From Ulota crispa (Eukaryota > Streptophyta > Bryopsida > Orthotrichales > Orthotrichaceae): a stretch of 64,000 nt of DNA. The notes under the pieces are model-generated. The model worked only from the letters and a program-made list of their open reading frames with translations, ran no database searches and was not told the origin of the DNA. The DNA lies in assembly GCA_963920765.1 (NCBI GenBank), contig OY987248.1:15968539-16032538 (forward strand), in the 5' to 3' direction. This document shows, piece by piece, positions 34,071 to 58,550 of the stretch. The number at the start of each line of letters is the position of its first letter. The stretch's first letter is position 1. The position numbers and the translations under genes are program-made.

Positions 34071-34611
34071 GATTAGGATCAACGACTCTTTGTCAGACGG
34101 ATCCAAGATGTTCCTTTTGCCTTCACACGCCACAGGTACTACAGAGGCGCTCCATGCGATGCATATCAAAAACTTCAGTGGAACTTTTACTTCACGCTGT
34201 GGACCGACCTACGGTCATCCTTGTTATTAGGGTCCACATCGGATCATTTCTAGGGTGCCGACATGTCCAGCTCAGATTTCTCGAAGGCGGGCTCGGGGCT
34301 CCTCTGGACTTCCTCCCGCCGTCCGTGTCGTTGTCACCTGCCAACGTTCGTCCAGAGGATGTGCGACTTTGTCATCTGCACATTCATTCTCCGTCGGCGG
34401 GCCGTCGTAGTCGTAGTCGTACCGGCGAGAATACGGTCTTCGATTGGGCCGAGGTGAACTCTAGCACCTTTTGCTTTTCAGTGTTGTGAACCTTGAGTCA
34501 ATTTCCCGTCACAAGCGGTATCTGATTCTTTGGATCTTGCTAGGATGCTCATGCTGTGATCAGTGACATTCAGGGAAATTTTGAAAAATTCCCCTATATT
34601 TGCCGCATTTT

Positions 34612-34927
34612 AAGAAAGGAAAATTTCATGGATACCCCTGAAGTTTGCAATAGTTTCATAGCTACCCCTGCTATTTCAGAAATTTTACAAGTATCATTGT
34701 ACCAAAAAATTTTAGGTGTTTTTTTTGTTGTGCATGTCACTTCCCTTTTTCCTTTGTGCGCACACATAGCAAGAAAGAAGTAGTGTGTGCACAAAGGTAG
34801 AAGAGAAGTTGCATGCCAAAACGCTTCAAAATTTTGGTCCAAGGGTATCTATGAAGTTTCTAAAAAAGCAAGGATATCTATGAAATTATTGTAAACTTTA
34901 GGGGTATCCACAAAATTTCCCCTTTTA
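34612..34927. mobile_element. Foldback element, family FB1 copy 1
   Basis: Starts GGAAAATTTCATGGATACCC; the inverse of its right end starts GGGGAAATTTTGTGGATACC. The two halves pair almost end to end. The same family occurs at 52004, 56493 and 57946. Confidence 0.75.
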
Positions 34928-37900
34928 AAAAAATACAAAAATATGTTGATAAGGGTTCCATAGTACCATAGTACAAGTGTACTATAGTGCAAGACAACAT
35001 AAAGCAACAAAGGCTTAACAACCATATGAGTTGTTTATAGCACCCCGTAATAAGTTGAGACACTTTCTGACTATAAGCGAGATGGTCTGAGAATCAAAGT
35101 TACAAAAACAAATGGGAGCTGTTGTTTGTCAAAAAAAGTTGTTGGCATTCAAATTGGGCAGTTACTATTTTGGCCAAAAAGTGTTGGTTTATGGTGTTTT
35201 GCACTATATGATCAACAAAAAGTACACAACCACCTTAGCAAACACTTGCCTATGAATTGATTTCATCTCTGTTTTTGCTTGTGTATTTCAATATTAAACC
35301 ATTTCTCCATATTTGATATTTTTGTTTTCTAATATTCACAAATATTTACATATTTGCACACTCATTGCACAAAAAAAAATTGCCTTCAACGAACAAGGTC
35401 TTTACAAAATTGGGAGTGGAAGCATTGCCTTGAGCATGCATACGGCAAGACATATTAGTGCACAATAGGTGCTTCATGGATCCCGTGTTATGGTATTTTT
35501 AGATTTACAAGGATACTTTTTGAATTTTTCCATACCTTTAGCTCAGTTTTGGGCAAATTTTTGGTGTGCAATAATTTATGACTTTGTATGAGGTGAAAAT
35601 ACCATAAATCATTAAAGTAAGCCACTTTAGCTTGTAAGATATGGGGGATTTCTTGAGAAATTAAGCTCAATTAGTGGAGAGACAAGGATAAGGAATAGTG
35701 GAAAAAAAAAAAAAAAAAAAAAAAAAACTCAATGTGGATTTAGGGTTTGGACCAATTCTTGTTTCATAAGTGCACCTTAAACAGCTACCTCTAGAACCTT
35801 GTTCCAAAACAAGTTTGAACCAATCAAATGCAAAGAATAGCATCTTTTTAGAATCTTTTAGAATCTTTTTCAAATCCAGCTACTAGAAGCGAGTAACCGT
35901 TTATAGTATTCCTACTTTACTTTCCAAAAGTTTGTTTTCTAAGAGCATGTATCAAGCATGATTTTTGAATTTATCAACGAGGTCAAACATAAGTAAATAT
36001 TTTTAGACCTTTGTCAAATCAATATAGAAGCATCCCATTTCAAAAATCACCAAAAATTTATAAATAATGTTTTTGGTAATGAAATTTTGATATGATAGGC
36101 TAAAACATTGATGATGTTGTTACCTTGATAAGGTTTTAAAGAAATATTTAGCACATTTTGTGCTTAAAATAAAATTTTCCCAAAGACATAATAAAAATTC
36201 TAAGAGATGAAAACTTGGAGTTACAGATATAAGTTATCAAACATGATTGAGTTAAAACTTCAAGATTGATAGCTATGTCCAAAACCAACCATGTTTTTTA
36301 TATAGATTTCACATAAATAAATTTGCCTTGGATGCCAATAAGTTAGTAGCATGTGAGCATAGAATGCTTAATAGAAAATTTTCAAAAATTGCCCTTAATG
36401 AGGGTTGTTAGTAAAGAAGGTCAAATAATAAATATTAAGTTGGACTTGAAGGCACTTTTATTGTAAATGAAAACGAAATGGATGAGTGTAAATTTGAAAT
36501 ATAAGAATCACTTCATCATAAACAAACTATTCATTTAGGTTGGATTAGAGACCTAATATAGATGGATGAGGATTAAAAAATGCAGTCACATTTTATACTC
36601 TAATATAAAATTTAACAATAGCATCGCATTCAATCAAATGGCCTTATGCACGTGCACCGATTATTGTAATGAAGAGCATAAGTGTATTTTTATTTAAATT
36701 CTTTTGTTATTGCCCTAATTGTACAATTGTTCTAATTTATGATATTATTACAATTTCATTTGAACAAATTTAGAAGAAAATAGTTACTTTCAATTAGTTG
36801 TATAAGATGTACAAACATGACTTCCCAAGGGCATAGTAGAGATGTTGTCGTATATTTGACATTTGCTACCAGTAAGAAATTTTAACTTGGTATCTCAAAT
36901 AGCTCACTAGAACTACATTTATCTATATTCCAACTTCTTTGTTGATCTCAAATGAAGTAGGGGTGTGGATCCTTTTGAGATATAAGAAAAATACCCCATA
37001 TTGTATTGGTTGCAAAGGACCTTATGGACGTTTAAGGGTTAAAGTGACATTCTTGAAGCACTAAAACACCAACCTAGTCATCAAAAACAAATTTTTTCAT
37101 GTTCCCCAATGAACAAATGAGTTTACTGTATCCATCTTTAATAATATCAATTAGCCTCAAGGTACTTTCATTTCAACATCAATATTAAAGCATATCAGGG
37201 GATGGTCTATTGTACACTGTTTAAGTCCTGTAACTCTCACGATAAATTTGAACTATATATACCATAATTTTCACACAATTAGGGTACTTAAAAATTTCTT
37301 TTTTAATTAATTTAAAAATGAAAAACTATACACTTCTATGAATAATACTTTGATTTCAAGTATGAAAAATGTAAAAAAAATCTTAGTCAGTCTGTCATAA
37401 TGAGAGATGATGTAAATAGATTTAAATATCCAAAAACCAGTGTGCGACCTAAAGAGCCGCAACAGCGACTGTACAGTTTTTTTGACGTGTAAAGAATTCC
37501 ATCGAAACGGGCTGGGGCTTTATCATCCATCCACGATGGCGAGGGCTTACTAAAACCTAAGCCATCAGCTCCGTCGTGTTCCGACTTGCGAATGCACATC
37601 AGTTTGTAGAGCTTCAAGTGCTCACGAAATTCAAAGTATTTCAAATAGTGTTCCGAAACTTGAACCACAATCTTATGTTCCATTTTGTTTCACTTTTAGG
37701 TTTTAATGTAAAAAAAATCCTCTCAAAGTGCTGTATTCAATTTGCTAAACAGTTTGACCGAGATGCTCAAACTCTTTCGGAGAGGAACAATTTGGTTGAC
37801 AGTCATCAGTCAGAATTCAAGGCGCTTGAGCAGGCAATGTGCGTGGAATAGAATTAGTCTCTTGAATACATTACGTTGTTTGAATTATAATCGCTCATTG

Positions 37901-38592: not shown

Positions 38593-41283
38593 ATGAAGAT
38601 GAAAGCGGGAAGGAGTTTCGTCAGAAAGGGCGTTGCTTCTGGTGCAGGGGCCTATATACAAGCGAAGGGCGTCAGACCTGGCTCTCATGGTGTTTCAATT
38701 GTGTCCTCAGGGCTCGATGACCTCGATCATATCCCCCCTTCTCTCTTCGTACATTCAATCGGTTTCTTGATGTGCTACACTAGTTTAAATGTTTTTTCCG
38801 TTCTCATTCTAATGCAATGTGAGCCTATTGTTTCCCTAGCTTTCCTCTTGCCGATGACTTTGGAAGATTCTCGTCACTTAACATATACCTACAGATAATT
38901 GGTGGCGGGATTCCAGTAGGGAGTTTGGTCATGATCATGGAAGACAATGAAGCGCCTCACCACATGTTGTTGCTACGTTACTTCATGGCTCAAGGTCTCG
39001 TGCATTCGCAACCTCTATTTTTCGCCAGTCCGTTGCTGTCTCCTAAAGCGTTTCTCGGGACCTTACCAGCCATAGCTAGTGTAAGAGAAAGCAAGAGCGG
39101 GTCGATGAGACCAAAGGACAGCAATCAACAGGTATCATTTTTCTGTGCTTTGATTCCTCATTGCGGTAGCATGAAATGCACATTTGTATGTCCTTTTTCC
39201 AATTCCTCTTAAGTGACAGAAGAGCTACATACTGAGATGAGTTTTGATGGACATGTTCTTGTAGGATGAGTTGCGGATCGCATGGCAGTATCGACGTTAT
39301 GTGAGTGAACAGAAAGCATTGGAAGAGCGGCGCGTACGACAACAAGAACTCTCTGCTTCCTCTTGGGCCCCATCGTCTTCATCTTTCATTCACACCACTG
39401 CAGGTAATTCTAAACCCTAATCCCTCACGAATCGTTCCTTTTCTGTTCCATTGTGCAAGCTTTGCCCATCATCGTGGCAATTTTATCAATCCCGAAAGGA
39501 TCAAGAGATCCAGATTGGAATTCCGGATTTTGGAGGACTTTTCAGTGGGTCATTTGAGGACTCTTTGTTCAATTTAAAATTCTAATTTTTAGAAAATACG
39601 CAAACTAAAGTCTTCACTGGTCCTGGTGATCTAGATTTAGCCCTGTCTGAATTACGTTATTCAGAATTTGATCAATTCAATCGGTTGTTTTTGAAACCAT
39701 GGGATACTGGTCAATTAGGGATTAAGCCGAACACGGCGGTTTTGCTTTGGAGCCACATTCCGATTTAAGTATTTATGCGCCTGCGAGGATGTTTGTTGTC
39801 TCGACTGTGGAGTTCAGTGATTTCGGGATATGTTGTGGTCGAGACGTTAGTGTTCTTAACAACCAGATAGTGTCCTTGCTCTCAACGGAGGTTGAGAAGG
39901 AGATAGGATAGATTTGATTTTTTTGCTTCTTTTTGCAGGTGAGTCTTATGAGTATTGCAATGATTTTGACTTGCGGAAGCCTTTGGAGCGTTCTCTGTTG
40001 ACTGGAGCCATGTGCAAATCATTAGTTTCGGGTGCACACCTTGGGGGCCTTCTGGACGAATGCAAGGAGTTTGTTGGGAAACTGGACAGGTTTAGATGAC
40101 TTTAACTGCTGAATCTATCCATATGATTTCTGGTATTGTGATGTAAAAGGGATTTAGTGTAGGTTGATATTATATTGTAGATTCCTGTAATTTTGCAAAG
40201 ACCTACTAATAAATACTAAATGGATAGTACTGCGAAGTAGATTTGGAAATCTATCTCTGAAACATTACTTGACTTATCCTGTACCAAGCAGGCCAGTTGG
40301 AGGGATGCAGACTGTGGGACGCTTGGCTCTGCAATCACTATGTGCTCCACAATGCATGCAGACTTGCACGGTCTGGAATCTTTTCTCTTTCTCCAGCACA
40401 CGTGTTGGATAGTTTTAATCTGATTATGCATACCATTCTTCCTTGATTCATTGTCTGACGTCATATGGTAGTGTTCAATAATTTAAGGCTCTGTCATTGC
40501 ATCGTGTTCCAGGAGTGGGAGTTACTATCATTTTTGCAAGCTCTCAAAGGGATTGTTCGGACCTCAAATTCAGTGGCTGTTATTACGTTTCCTGCATCTC
40601 TATTGAGACCTACGATAGCTACTCGGTGGCAACATTTTGCAGATATTCTGCTGTCTGTGGAAGCTGTCCTCGGTAAGCAATGTTTCATCCTTCTAAACAA
40701 ATTCTAGTAGTAGTGTTGAAATTAACAGATACGCTATATTCTGCGTATGTGAAGAGGTTTAGCTGCTTATCAGTGGTGGTTGTGCTCGATGCAGATGAAG
40801 ATAAAGAGATGTCTGGAATGCTAACAGATTATCAGGAAATTGTGGGGTTCCTCCGTGTGCACAAGCTGTCGACTATAAACACTCAAGTACATTTTCTTCT
40901 GCTGTTTCTGAATTCCGATGTCTATAGCAGCATTTAATCCCATTCCACATCTTGTTACCAAAGCTGAAGGCGACTTGTCATTGTCATACTCCGTTGCAGA
41001 TCACTGCCTGACTTAGCTACTGTTTTAGGATGCAACGAGTCTTGATCATTCTTAATTAAATTCTGTAAGCTTTACACATGTTGCGTCTTTTTTTCTTATG
41101 CAGGTTCCCAATGTTCCTGATGCCAACGTTCATACGATGAAGGTTATCAGAAGAAAGAAGTTAACTTTAGAGCGCCTACAATTTGCCCCTGTGGATGCAG
41201 TTTCAGGGGAATCTGGAAGTGAGACTGCAGCTAGTCTTTTATGTGGACAACCAGCTAATGCTCCCTCAAAATACGACTTCTGA
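38593..41283 (+). CDS. ELP4: Elongator complex subunit 4 (PAXNEB family)
   Basis: Eight exons: 38593-38728, 38893-39131, 39265-39403, 39939-40089, 40292-40370, 40513-40672, 40795-40886 and 41104-41283, all phases consistent, 391 residues (Arabidopsis ELP4 is about 355). Diagnostic stretches are [81 protein letters not shown] and [17 protein letters not shown]4 forms the Elp456 RecA-like ring of Elongator, which acts with Elp123 in wobble-uridine tRNA modification and transcription-linked acetylation. The start ATG at 38593 is followed six bases later by another in frame (38599), and either could be used. Intron 1 is AT-AC; the rest are GT-AG, with a weak donor after exon 5 (GTCTGG). The exon 3 extension ([12 protein letters not shown]) looks lineage-specific. 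The 5' flank holds a 198-bp tandem duplication. Confidence 0.95.
38729..38892 (+). other. U12-type AT-AC intron, intron 1 of ELP4
   Basis: The frame continues from ...LDDLD to QIIGGG only if the intron starts ATATCCCC and ends TACCTAC. The donor fits the minor-spliceosome ATATCC core (positions +7 and +8 are C instead of T). A branch-like TCACTTAAC lies at 38874-38882, with the branch A about 11 bases before the terminal AC. No GT donor in the area keeps the frame without adding unrelated residues. Confidence 0.8.
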
Positions 41284-43278
41284 GATTCTTTGAGTAATCA
41301 TTTTGTCTTCGCTGGGAAGCTATAACAGTCACGAGGTTACCTGGTCGTCCGCAATGTAACTCAATCACCAGGGCGCAATTTCTAGTATGCAAATGGGGCA
41401 TTGAAATCGTAATTGTAGATTGATTGTGTACGCATCGGAATGAATTTGGGTGTTCAACATGGTCTTTGAAGGTGCATCTCTTATGCTTAACAGATTGGGC
41501 AGGTGATGAGATGTTATATGCAGCTCTGCTCTCAGGAGACGGTGTACTGATTCTGAGAAGGTTGTTTGTTTATCCGATCACCGAACTGACTATGAACATC
41601 AGATGTGTGCTGCTTGTTATTAAAGGCTAATGTATGCACGCATTGTAGGAATGAAATTGCTGTTCTTCTATTTGCATGTCGTTGTACCAGATCAGCTAAC
41701 TGAACTTGAGTCAGTTCAAATCACTATTGCATGATGTTCGAGGCTTACATTATAATGTTGTGCTGCAGGAATGCAATCACAACCAAAGGAAGCTATCCAA
41801 CTAGCTTATGTCTTCGAAATGGACGCAAGAGTGAACCTGTGATATTGCTCCTTTCAACCTCTTACAAATTAATGCGTGATTTTCTCCTCGAAGAATGTTG
41901 ACAAGCTTTCAGGGCTACAAGTTTATGGCTTCAAATACATGGCTTACTGATGAACAATGTCAATTCAGAGTTTGAGACTGCGCTTCGTGTATGTTCACGC
42001 CTGACAAGATAACGATTGTTATGAAGTCTATTCTCCAGGTTGTCTTGAGTGTAGTAACTGCTGCCAACATGAAGCAGCTCTTTGTCGCATGTATCCTGTC
42101 AGCGTGAGCAAGTAGAGTACCGACTAACAGCAACCTGTTGATGTCATAGTTCAGTTCATAAAGATTTAGCGCATCAAAAGTGACATAAGGAAACACGACA
42201 TATGCCGTTACTTGACGTTCCTGCTTTTCAAGCTGTGGTACTTGCGGTTGCTGAACCTGCCACTTAATGGTTGTTGCAACTACAACAAAGACTGATCGGA
42301 CCGTCCGCTTTACGTGATCGTGACATATTGGCACCAAGGGACGTTCGAATTTCATCTAATCTGCGAATACCAACGTTCGGTAGTGTCATTGCTTCCCTTA
42401 AACTTCCTCTGACATTTCGTTGTCATGCAAAGATGCTAGACTTGACTGCATTTAAATCTGATGGTTGTGAAAATCACTCTAGAGACGGCATTTGACCAGG
42501 TATAGCGAGAATAGAGAGCCTTTTTTTTTAGCGAGTGATCAAGAGATTGCGAGGGATGTTATTTCTACGCCAAGACCGTATTGAACATAATCTTAATTGT
42601 TGGTTGGATTATTTAATCAAGTGTCTAAAATGGATACCATAATGCGATAGGACACAATTGCGAGATATAACCCACATGTAATATATAGTTGTTACCTCTA
42701 TAGATGTGGGCATCATTATTAATGATTTAGATGTTGCAGGCATGCGAAGTCAGCTGAGAGACAGAATCAACTGTAATGTTTGAAATTGAAGCCTAGTATA
42801 AACCGCCCTGGGATACAACAGATCGTAAACATCCACTTAAGATCTCCCAACAACGGAGGTAAGAGATCGCCATCTCATCCATTACATCCTGGAAAAAGGA
42901 CGATGCCTCGTTCAAGTGATTGACTGTTCATTATGACCTTTGACAGGTCAAAACTACACCTGTCCAATAAAAGTGAGCGGACACTCTGGTAAACGTCTCT
43001 CTGGCATGCCAAATATTACGGGCTACAAATTAGCCGGTGATTGGTCCCCGGAGACACAAACCTAGAGTGGAGGGCTTCAACAATTCAATAAAGTCACTGG
43101 TTTTCCGGACAGGGAGCTTTTTCAGGCATGAACAATACCGCCACTGGCCGGCGCGCGACGAGTTATCTCTACAAGCCGCTTCGCAGTCCGGGCGTGGTAC
43201 CCGAAGTGAAAGGAGAAAAAGGTAAACAACTGATGCTTCATAAATACACAAAAAGCTTGAAATGATCCCATAGCCAGG
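41284..43278. other. ELP4 3' flank and LBD 3' flank
   Basis: Convergent intergenic region. Frames up to 131 codons occur without family resemblance. Confidence 0.4.
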
Positions 43279-52003: not shown

Positions 52004-52328
52004 TGGGAAAATTTCACTGATACGGCCGTAAAGTTTGCAATATTTCCGTAGACACCCTTTACTTTCAGAAATTGCACAAATACCTTTGGACAATAATTTT
52101 TAGGCATTTTTTTGTTGTGCTTGTACTTCCTTCATGACAAATGTTGAAGAAGGGAATGTGATGAAACAAAAGAGAAGTAACAAGCACACAAAGGAAGAAG
52201 GGAAGTAACATGCATAACAAAACAAATGTCTAAAATTTTTGATCCAAAGGTATTTGATTACTTTTTGAAAAAATAAGGGTATCTATGAAAATATTGCAAA
52301 CTTTAAGGGATCCATGATATTTTCCCTT
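52004..52328. mobile_element. Foldback element, family FB1 copy 2
   Basis: Begins gggaaaatttcactgatac and ends atccatgatattttccctta. The centre has the family's TTGTTGTGCTTG and cacaaaggaagaag segments. Confidence 0.7.
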
Positions 52329-52564
52329 AACTTCTCAACTTAGTATAAACTACCTAGACTGGCCTTTGATGCCAAGCTATGCAAAGATTTTTTTTGTGTA
52401 GTGTATGATGCCGTACCCAATTTGAAAAGGAATCCACATACATTATAAAAACTTCTTGCCATTTTACTTAATAATTCTAAAAAATTAACAAGCAAAAAGG
52501 TATTTTTTTTAACACAAATTCTATCCAAATTCAAAGGAATACATAGAGAATTCTATTTACAATT

Positions 52565-55854: not shown

Positions 55855-56492
55855 GAGATTAAAATAAACATGAAATTAATACATTAATCATTTTCTGAAT
55901 ATGGAAAGCATGCTAAATTCTTTCAATTACCAATTAAGGTTCCTTCACTTTTACTATGGGCCCAACGTTGGGACTGAGTTGCAATTTTGCATATGCCTAC
56001 ACTAAGTATTTCCTATACTTACACCATGACTCAGGAATTATTTTGAAAAATTGATCAACTTATTCTACTAGAGTTTCAAAGATCACAAGTTTTTTTGCAT
56101 TTTTTGCATTTTTATCGGCCAACAGCACACTGATTGCCAATTCTCCTCAACCGTTTGTTGAGACTAAGAAGTTGTTTGTTCATTTATGGAGGTTCTTCCC
56201 CTGACAATATGTCTTTAGACTACTACCACGCATTACTTTGTGAGTCTCCTGTTTCCCTACAAATCTCAACTCTTGCTACTTGTTAAACACTTCCTTTAAA
56301 CATGTGAAATGAAATGCATTTCCGAACACACTACTTCCTCCAATAAGCTGAGAACTGCATATGAAGTCCTAAAACACCTGTCACAAACCCCCACACAATC
56401 AATTGTAAGATCTAAAGCACATGATGCTTCTTTAGTGAAATCCGAGCCCAAACAAAATAGATACTGTCTTCAAAATCAAACCATGGTTTATG

Positions 56493-56812
56493 TAAGGAAA
56501 ATTTCATGGACACCCCTGAAGTTTGCCATATTTTCATAAATACCCCTGCTTTTTCAGAAGTATCACAAATAAATACCCTTGACCAAAATTTCAGGTGTTT
56601 GTTTTGTTGTGCATGCCACTTCTCTTCTTCCTTTGTGTGCACGCATAACAGAAAAGAAGTAGTGTGCGTATAAAGGGAGAAGGCAGTGATATGAACAAGA
56701 AAACAAACGCCTAAAATTTGTGGTCCAGGGGTATTTGTGAAATTTCTGAAAAAGCAGGGGTATCTATGAAAATATGGCAAACTTCAAGGGTATCCATGAA
56801 ATTTTCCCTTTT
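56493..56812. mobile_element. Foldback element, family FB1 copy 3
   Basis: Starts AAGGAAAATTTCATGGACAC; the inverse of the right end is AAAGGGAAAATTTCATGGAT. It lies about 170 bases beyond the COX5C stop codon, so it may sit in or just after the 3' UTR. Confidence 0.8.
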
Positions 56813-56984
56813 AAATAATTAAACACATCTTGGACACGCACGTATCATGAAAAAGAATTTAATGGAGCGTGCTCGATTACCCCTGATGTATACAGCACCA
56901 AATGGAGACAGACAAAGATAGAGTTGCAAGGTGAACTTTCAGCAAAACATGATCAAGATGTGCTTATACTCACAATTGAGCAGT

Positions 56985-58550
56985 TTACTCCCCTGCAGCA
57001 ATAACAGTGATCTCTCCTGCCTCCAATCGGGCATATTTTTCCTCTGTCTTGCGGCGCTCGTTCATATGATGTACCTTCCAGAACGAGCCAGCTGCCATGC
57101 CATGCCATACTCAAAGCCATCAAAACATACAATCTACACTCAAAGCAACAAAAATGCTCACAAAATAAAAAAAAACAATGCCAATACCACAATTGAATGC
57201 TCACCCTCGTTACACAACCAAAATAAGTGACAAGATGAGAAACCAAATGCCTTACAAAACAAACTACCACGATGAAAACTTCGCTCTCAAAACAAGCAGG
57301 ACGCTGAAATAATTGCTGGAGAAAATACTTCATTAATAAATTAATATTCTCATCATGGAATGCTAGCCTAAACAATAGAACCAGCACATAAAACAACATT
57401 CTAAATATCAATTCGCTTAATAGTACTCTCTAAGTATACAACTCTAAGTATACAAGTTGCAGCATTTCTTGATGCTGTAAAAGTCAACCGTGCATGGTGC
57501 CCTCATGAAAATTGCAAGAAGGGCAGCTTGAGACCTAACACCGTGTCTCTGAATCTTCTCACATTTTCGATTACCTAAAAATGTGACTGCATTTAATGAT
57601 ATAACTTTTTGCCTCCCATGACTTCTACAAAGAATGCAAATAAAAAACAGCATTTTTTTGTATTTTTTTTTGTAGTACAGAATCTTTTTTGGAGCCGGAG
57701 GACCAAAAAAACGTCCTCCTCAGCGTTTAAGGGTTAAACAGCGAACAAAATCAAGAACGTCAACTACATGAAAGAAAATTGTTTCTCTATTATTCTACAA
57801 AATTAACAAACTACCACAATGAACACTTCTATCTTTTAAAATGCAGTCGCTAGGTAGTAACCATAGTGACCCTCGACTTCTCGAGCCTAAGAAAATCAAA
57901 TGCAACCACCTCCTACCAAATCCTGCAAATAACACTACTTATTTCTTGTTAAGTGTGCGCACAAAGGAAGAAGGGAAGTGGCATGCACAACAAAACAAAC
58001 ACCTGAAATTATGAGTCCAAGAATATTTGTGATATTTCTGAAAAAGCAGGGGTATCTATGAAAATATTGCAAACTTCAGGGGTACCCATGAAAATTTCCC
58101 AATAATTAAATGCAAACAGAAAACTCGACATCCAGCAAATCCTTTCACTGCAGTCCAGACTACAAAAAAAAAGAAAAAAGAAAAACTGAATGCAAACAGA
58201 AAATTTGAAATCCGGCAAAATCCTTTCACTAAAAAGTCCAGACTACAAAAAAAACAAAAAAAACAAAGCTAAATGCAAACAGAAAACTCGACATCCGTAA
58301 ATCCTCGCACTGTAGTCCAGACTACAAAGCAAAAAAAAAGAAAAAGCAAGAACTGAATGCAAGCAGAAAACTCGACATTTGAAAACTCACATGAGAAAAG
58401 GGAACAGATGATGGGGGGATCCATGCAGGGAGTTAACTCACCGACAAGTCCAAGGCCAATGCCATAAGAAATCTCCCGCAACAAATTCGGACAAGTCTTG
58501 GACGCCTGCGCCGCGACTTGCGCGGGTAGCCTGGCAGCTGCGGTAGTCAT
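56985..58550 (-). CDS. COX5C: Cytochrome c oxidase subunit 5C (plant type)
   Basis: Two exons, 58442-58550 and 56985-57091 (minus), encode 71 residues; usual plant length is 63-64. Exon 1 gives MTTAAARLPAQVAAQ...LLREISYGIGLGLV. Exon 2 continues AGSFWKVHHMNERRKT and EEKYARLEAGEITVIAAGE, matching the family core (GLxAGxxWKxHHxNExRKT and a C-terminal LEKGEISVV-like end). One transmembrane helix covers about residues 27-46, and the charged C-terminal half should face one side of the inner mitochondrial membrane within complex IV. Donor GTGAGT at 58441 and a CAG acceptor at 57092 keep the frame through a split Ala codon. The 1350-bp intron is filled with repeats. The surrounding DNA is AT-rich, and the exons stand out by their codon-like composition. 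Confidence 0.92.
57700..57737. mobile_element. Isolated right end of a TTAA element inside the COX5C intron
   Basis: AGCGTTTAAGGGTTAA matches the end at 59077; no left partner was found. Confidence 0.4.
57946..58100. mobile_element. Half copy of foldback family FB1 in the COX5C intron
   Basis: Only the right half is present, from gtgtgcgcacaaaggaag to cccatgaaaatttccc. Confidence 0.7.
58109..58380. repeat. About 82-bp minisatellite in the COX5C intron, 3.5 units
   Basis: Units start AATGCAAACAGAAAACTCGA at about 58109, 58189, 58272 and 58356. Each contains AGTCCAGACTACAAA followed by an A/G-rich run. Confidence 0.85.

Follow-up and report, generated by a model that had tools for sequence, protein, structure and literature searches.

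A probable U12-type AT-AC intron at the start of ELP4

Positions 38729-38892 (+ strand) of the window, the 64,000-nucleotide stretch of Ulota crispa DNA analysed here (C7:15968539-16032538), very probably form a U12-type AT-AC intron of 164 nt and phase 1, the first in an intact plant gene for ELP4 (Elongator subunit 4), as judged from the junction, the Pfam match and the splice signals. The initial annotation had proposed an AT-AC minor-spliceosome intron in ELP4, and this stands as the best reading given the profile scores, the minor-spliceosome genes and an AT-AC intron in CBP20 of the same genome. We regard the intron as real, yet as an ordinary further instance of a rare but well-described intron class that the minor spliceosome excises. 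Among the literature matches listed (supplementary tables and intron databases lying outside the search), none connects ELP4 with minor or AT-AC introns: in the excerpted text of PMC9295495 and PMC8394865, ELP4 and minor-intron terms occur in unrelated places, and the main text of PMC2426677 is without PAXNEB, Elp4 or elongator.

The region 38593-41283 (+ strand) encodes a full-length ELP4 protein of 391 amino acids in an intact frame distributed over eight exons. Specifically, the product matches Pfam PAXNEB (PF05625) with 255.5 bits from its residue 23 onwards, covering most of the profile (positions 4-347 of 366). The coding part of exon 1 (38593..38728) is an open frame that starts with the ATG at 38593 and ends in GAT C; a second ATG lies at 38599, and we infer the upstream one to be the start codon. 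Exon 2 (38893..39131) begins with AG ATA ATT GGT and encodes the glycine loop IIGGG, and is followed on the same strand by exons 3-5 (39265-39403, 39939-40089 and 40292-40370) and exons 6-8 (40513-40672, 40795-40886 and 41104-41283). Exon ends were set by eye at GT and AG and then checked for frame, a GT-AG placement being possible in all six of introns 2-7. The donor of intron 5 (40371-40376) is unusual, ACG/GTCTGG, and is the same in the second ELP4 copy described below. A search for ELP4 relatives in viral contigs gave none. Elsewhere in the window, three of nine frames scanned against Pfam score above the cut-off (Myb/SANT-like, LOB domain and phosphatidylinositol transfer protein), a set in keeping with a land plant, and a MITE-like family of ~320-bp repeats occurs in both orientations (34607-34934, 52005-52330, 56487-56813 and 57932-58116).

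The protein sequence at the exon 1/exon 2 junction

Joining exon 1 to exon 2 in frame requires an intron length of 2 modulo 3, and the AT-AC join reads CTC GAT GAC CTC GAT C/AG ATA ATT GGT GGC GGG, corresponding to LDDLD-Q-IIGGG. We listed all joins with intron starts at 38700-38799 and ends at 38850-38911, whatever their terminal dinucleotides. LDDLD and IIGGG stay in frame and stop-free in 1065 of these joins, and seven leave a linker of one residue. GT-AG and GC-AG ends are absent from these seven; the AT-AC join alone has both recognised ends (AT-AC or GT-AG) together with matching signals. Three of the seven (CA-TA 38728-38891, AT-AC 38729-38892 and TA-CA 38730-38893) give Q from one common mRNA, and the other four give H. 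When the ends are confined to GT-AG, GC-AG, AT-AC, AT-AG or GT-AC and the linker to at most 14 residues, 16 joins are obtained, including a single GT-AG join (38749-38894, with a seven-residue linker) and no GC-AG join.

A PDB search, whose query carried a misread residue, matched ELP4 chains that read LD-S-IL, with one residue before the glycine loop and one extra residue further on in the loop. These chains comprise three distinct sequences that are overlapping constructs, apparently of one protein, presumably that of yeast. Arabidopsis and human ELP4 likewise have one residue at this spacing. Among six N-terminal constructs scored against PAXNEB, those with a one-residue linker score highest (Q, 103.6 bits; H, 103.3 bits), ahead of a three-residue linker (96.1 bits) and no linker (94.4 bits); the remaining two constructs represent GT-AG joins. 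The profile thus distinguishes the AT-AC product from the GT-AG products and does not distinguish Q from H. Since Q and H score nearly alike, the choice of Q rests on the splice signals.

The GT-AG join at 38749-38894 (TTC/GTACAT ... CTACAG/ATA), which would make the intron U2-type, is in frame and stop-free, and its donor hexamer GTACAT equals that of ELP4 intron 7 (CAA/GTACAT). We nevertheless consider it very unlikely, as it gives a linker of seven residues instead of the family's single one, lowers the score by ~12 bits both at full length (from 255.5 to 243.1) and in the N-terminal construct (from 103.6 to 91.3), and leaves the set of ATATCC, CTTAAC and AC without explanation. Additionally, an exonic TTC ahead of GT is a poor donor context. 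A second GT-AG join, at 38701-38894 (ATT/GTGTCC ... CTACAG/ATA), also preserves the frame, but it truncates exon 1 by VSSGLDDLD and so deletes residues covered by the profile, with scores falling to 72.2 from 103.6 bits (N-terminal) and to 224.3 from 255.5 bits (full length); its probability is minimal. Both GT-AG joins were rejected on these grounds.

The initial annotation had stated that the frame and the family sequence force an AT-AC intron. This is borne out for the joined mRNA, LDDLD-Q-IIGGG, but not for AT-AC itself: because three equivalent placements yield the same mRNA, the frame alone is insufficient, and it is the signals, together with the intron classes known to exist, that decide for AT-AC.

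Splice signals of intron 1

The coordinates first assigned to the intron are exact. Position 38728 is C, the intron begins with ATATCCCCC at 38729 and ends with ...CCTAC at 38892, and AG-ATA-ATT-GGT follows directly 3' of it. At the 5' splice site, the core ATATCC (+1..+6; 38729..38734, + strand) agrees exactly with the U12-type consensus ATATCCTT, as given in the excerpted text of PMC2831892, whereas +7..+9 read CCC in place of TTT, so that the extended form RTATCCTT(T) is matched in ATATCC and departed from at +7..+9. The AT-AG join at 38731-38894 (CAT/ATCCCC ... CAG/ATA), which places H instead of Q, fits the family equally well (103.3 bits), but its 5' end ATCCCCCC departs from the U12-type consensus, and AT-AG pairs seem disfavoured in U12-type splicing according to the part of PMC3584512 available to us. 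This join was rejected on both counts, and we give it next to no probability.

The AT-AC intron carries the branch site TCACTTAAC (38874..38882, + strand), already noticed as a branch-like motif 11 bases before the intron end. Its second A (38881) is 11 nt away from the final base of the intron, within the optimum of 11-13 nt stated for U12-type introns in the same part of PMC3584512. The site equals the consensus TTCCTTAAC at 7 of 9 positions with the CTTAAC core whole, the excerpted text of PMC5932401 giving the U12-type branch consensus as TTCCTTRAY. The 3' splice site is AC (38891..38892, + strand), and the AG after it (38893-38894) is coding. U12-type introns typically lack a distinct polypyrimidine tract; in ELP4 intron 1, the 20 bases preceding AC contain 13 pyrimidines, a content like that of the six GT-AG introns of the gene (10-17). 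For the ELP4 branch region, the best duplex computed with the genome's own U12 snRNA is weak at -4.1 kcal/mol and lies outside the branch register; the C8 copy reaches -6.7 kcal/mol and a consensus site -8.9 kcal/mol. The CCC at +7..+9, the imperfect branch site with its weak duplex and the variant U6atac box described below weigh against the U12-type reading.

These signals by themselves were rejected as proof, the loose combination not being rare in the window: ATATCC...CTTAA[CT]...AC within at most 500 nt occurs from four ATATCC starts over both strands, where 100 first-order Markov simulations give ~1.6 for each strand. The composition-based chance of finding all signal parts at the protein-forced junction is ~2.5e-7, a rough figure that presumes independence and concerns motifs picked after the fact. 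The splice signals are significant only once anchored to that junction.

Compared with introns 2-7 of the same gene, which are U2-type, intron 1 is similar in length (122-535 nt in the others) and in A+T content (60-68 %), but those introns end in GT-AG in six of six cases as placed and intron 1 in AT-AC. Being of phase 1 and the first intron, it agrees with both trends reported in the excerpted text of PMC10639083, namely the phase order 1 > 2 > 0 of minor introns and their significant 5' bias in 112 of 290 streptophytes.

A decayed ELP4 copy in the same genome

The own-genome searches covered the 274.8-Mb assembly of 157 contigs. At C8:17458500-17464500, a duplicate of window 38641-42792 is present with ~90-94 % identity (26 kb of C8 compared). 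The duplicate still has its introns; it begins in the middle of exon 1, whose 5' part has no counterpart there. Exons 2 and 6 each carry an in-frame TAG, and the intron 2 donor is GC, not GT; judging by this damage, the duplicate is a pseudogene. One ~320-bp MITE-like repeat lies inside it, at the stretch matching intron 3. The decay of this second copy could be taken to mean that the ELP4 gene as such is non-functional, with splicing of intron 1 not needed; yet the window copy is an intact 391-residue frame and the C8 copy alone is damaged, and we hold non-functionality to be extremely unlikely.

Intron 1 of the C8 copy keeps ATATCC (ATATCCCC) and AC, and has CTCCTTAAC. The branch region reads CACAAAGACTCCTTAAC in C8 versus CACTTAAC in the window gene, whose branch core is intact despite this nine-base difference. 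Because the longer C8 form has the fuller consensus, loss of the nine bases leading to the branch core from the window copy is more likely than their gain in C8. The C8 copy was rejected as independent proof of the AT-AC intron: since it duplicates the window gene, the agreement between the two reflects common descent.

A second AT-AC intron and the minor-spliceosome genes

According to the excerpted text of PMC5932401, CBP20 contains an AT-AC U12-type intron in 10 of 10 plant species compared. We located CBP20 in the Ulota crispa genome and placed the join by eye. The intron reads ATATCCTCTA...TTTACCTTAATTTGAAATGGTTGCAC, is 151 nt long and of phase 1, and its removal restores DYDPGRGGYGKL; its signals are ATATCCTC and ACCTTAAT, with a branch A placed 16 nt before the intron end, beyond the 11-13 nt optimum. 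This join indicates that AT-AC introns of the U12 class exist in this genome. The ELP4 intron resembles it in the ATATCC core, the CTTAAY core near the 3' end, the terminal AC and phase 1, but differs at +7..+9 (CCC in ELP4, TCT in CBP20), in the branch site (TCACTTAAC versus TACCTTAAT) and in the distance of the branch A from the end (11 versus 16 nt). A MIR5048-like stretch (Rfam, 71.8 bits, below the cut-off of 160) occurs at L010 1945-2306 (also L009 1004-1365), in the CBP20 intron that precedes the exon with GRGRSGGQ at its end.

Genes of the minor spliceosome are likewise present. The genome contains two U12 snRNA genes (101.3 and 96.6 bits) and one U6atac gene (80.9 bits; Rfam cut-off 33), both families giving no match in 14 control genomes. 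Additionally, a U11-48K-type finger (32.8 bits) lies within an ATG-started frame of 684 amino acids; as this finger family also occurs in one of the 14 controls, the archaeon Sulfolobus acidocaldarius, it is weaker evidence. The two U12 genes (L006 and L007 on G000:C4) are nearly identical and ~15 kb apart, and an 18-bp repeat (GATGATTCTCGTCCTGCA) forms an array after L006.

Predicted splicing of ELP4 intron 1

From the U12-type class of the intron, we infer a splicing route in which U11/U12 would act before U4atac/U6atac/U5. Specifically, U11 with U11-48K would read the ATATCC 5' site, and U12 would base-pair to the branch region, CTTAAC, 11 nt before the AC end; U6atac would then take the place of U11 at the 5' site. 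Exon joining at GAT C/AG would restore the ELP4 core as LDDLD-Q-IIGGG, and the spliced mRNA across 38728/38893 would read ...GACCTCGATCAGATAATTGG. If intron 1 were retained, the protein would stop at the TAA at 38896-38898. If this reading is true, ELP4 belongs to the minor-spliceosome-dependent genes in the lineage of Ulota crispa, and gene models restricted to GT-AG and GC-AG introns would be expected to truncate or mis-join its start.

A variant pairing box in U6atac

The U6atac gene (L008; G000:C4:3240167-3240294, - strand) reads GAGCCGAGAGAAGG in place of the Rfam consensus GAAAGGAGAGAAGG. Its 5'-splice-site pairing box is accordingly AGCCGA instead of AAAGGA, a stretch that we take to be the 5'-site pairing register. 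An exact pattern search of the genome returned a single U6atac copy with the AGCCGA box. Places with at most three mismatches to the canonical box number 25; the closest, L018, has two mismatches and was rejected as a canonical U6atac gene at 17.8 bits against the cut-off of 33, looking like a chance match or a remnant, L018 and the U6atac gene being the two of the 25 scored individually. The Rfam search of the genome for U6atac scored 46 of 15217 first-look candidates, so an additional copy could be missed.

With the AGCCGA box, the consensus 5' site forms four of six pairs, versus six with the canonical box; the corresponding numbers are four versus five for CBP20 and three versus three for ELP4. 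No clear compensation for the variant box is seen in the 5' sites of ELP4 or CBP20. A minor spliceosome might operate with the AGCCGA U6atac while U11 and proteins carry 5'-site recognition, the CCC of ELP4 being therefore tolerated; we consider this rather unlikely. The box variant may be best taken as a lead rather than a result. If confirmed, it bears on how strictly the helix between U6atac and the 5' site is required, and it is possibly of more interest than ELP4 intron 1 itself. The promoter of the U6atac gene has ATACCATATTG at -64, which resembles ATACCATATCG at -68 in both U12 genes.
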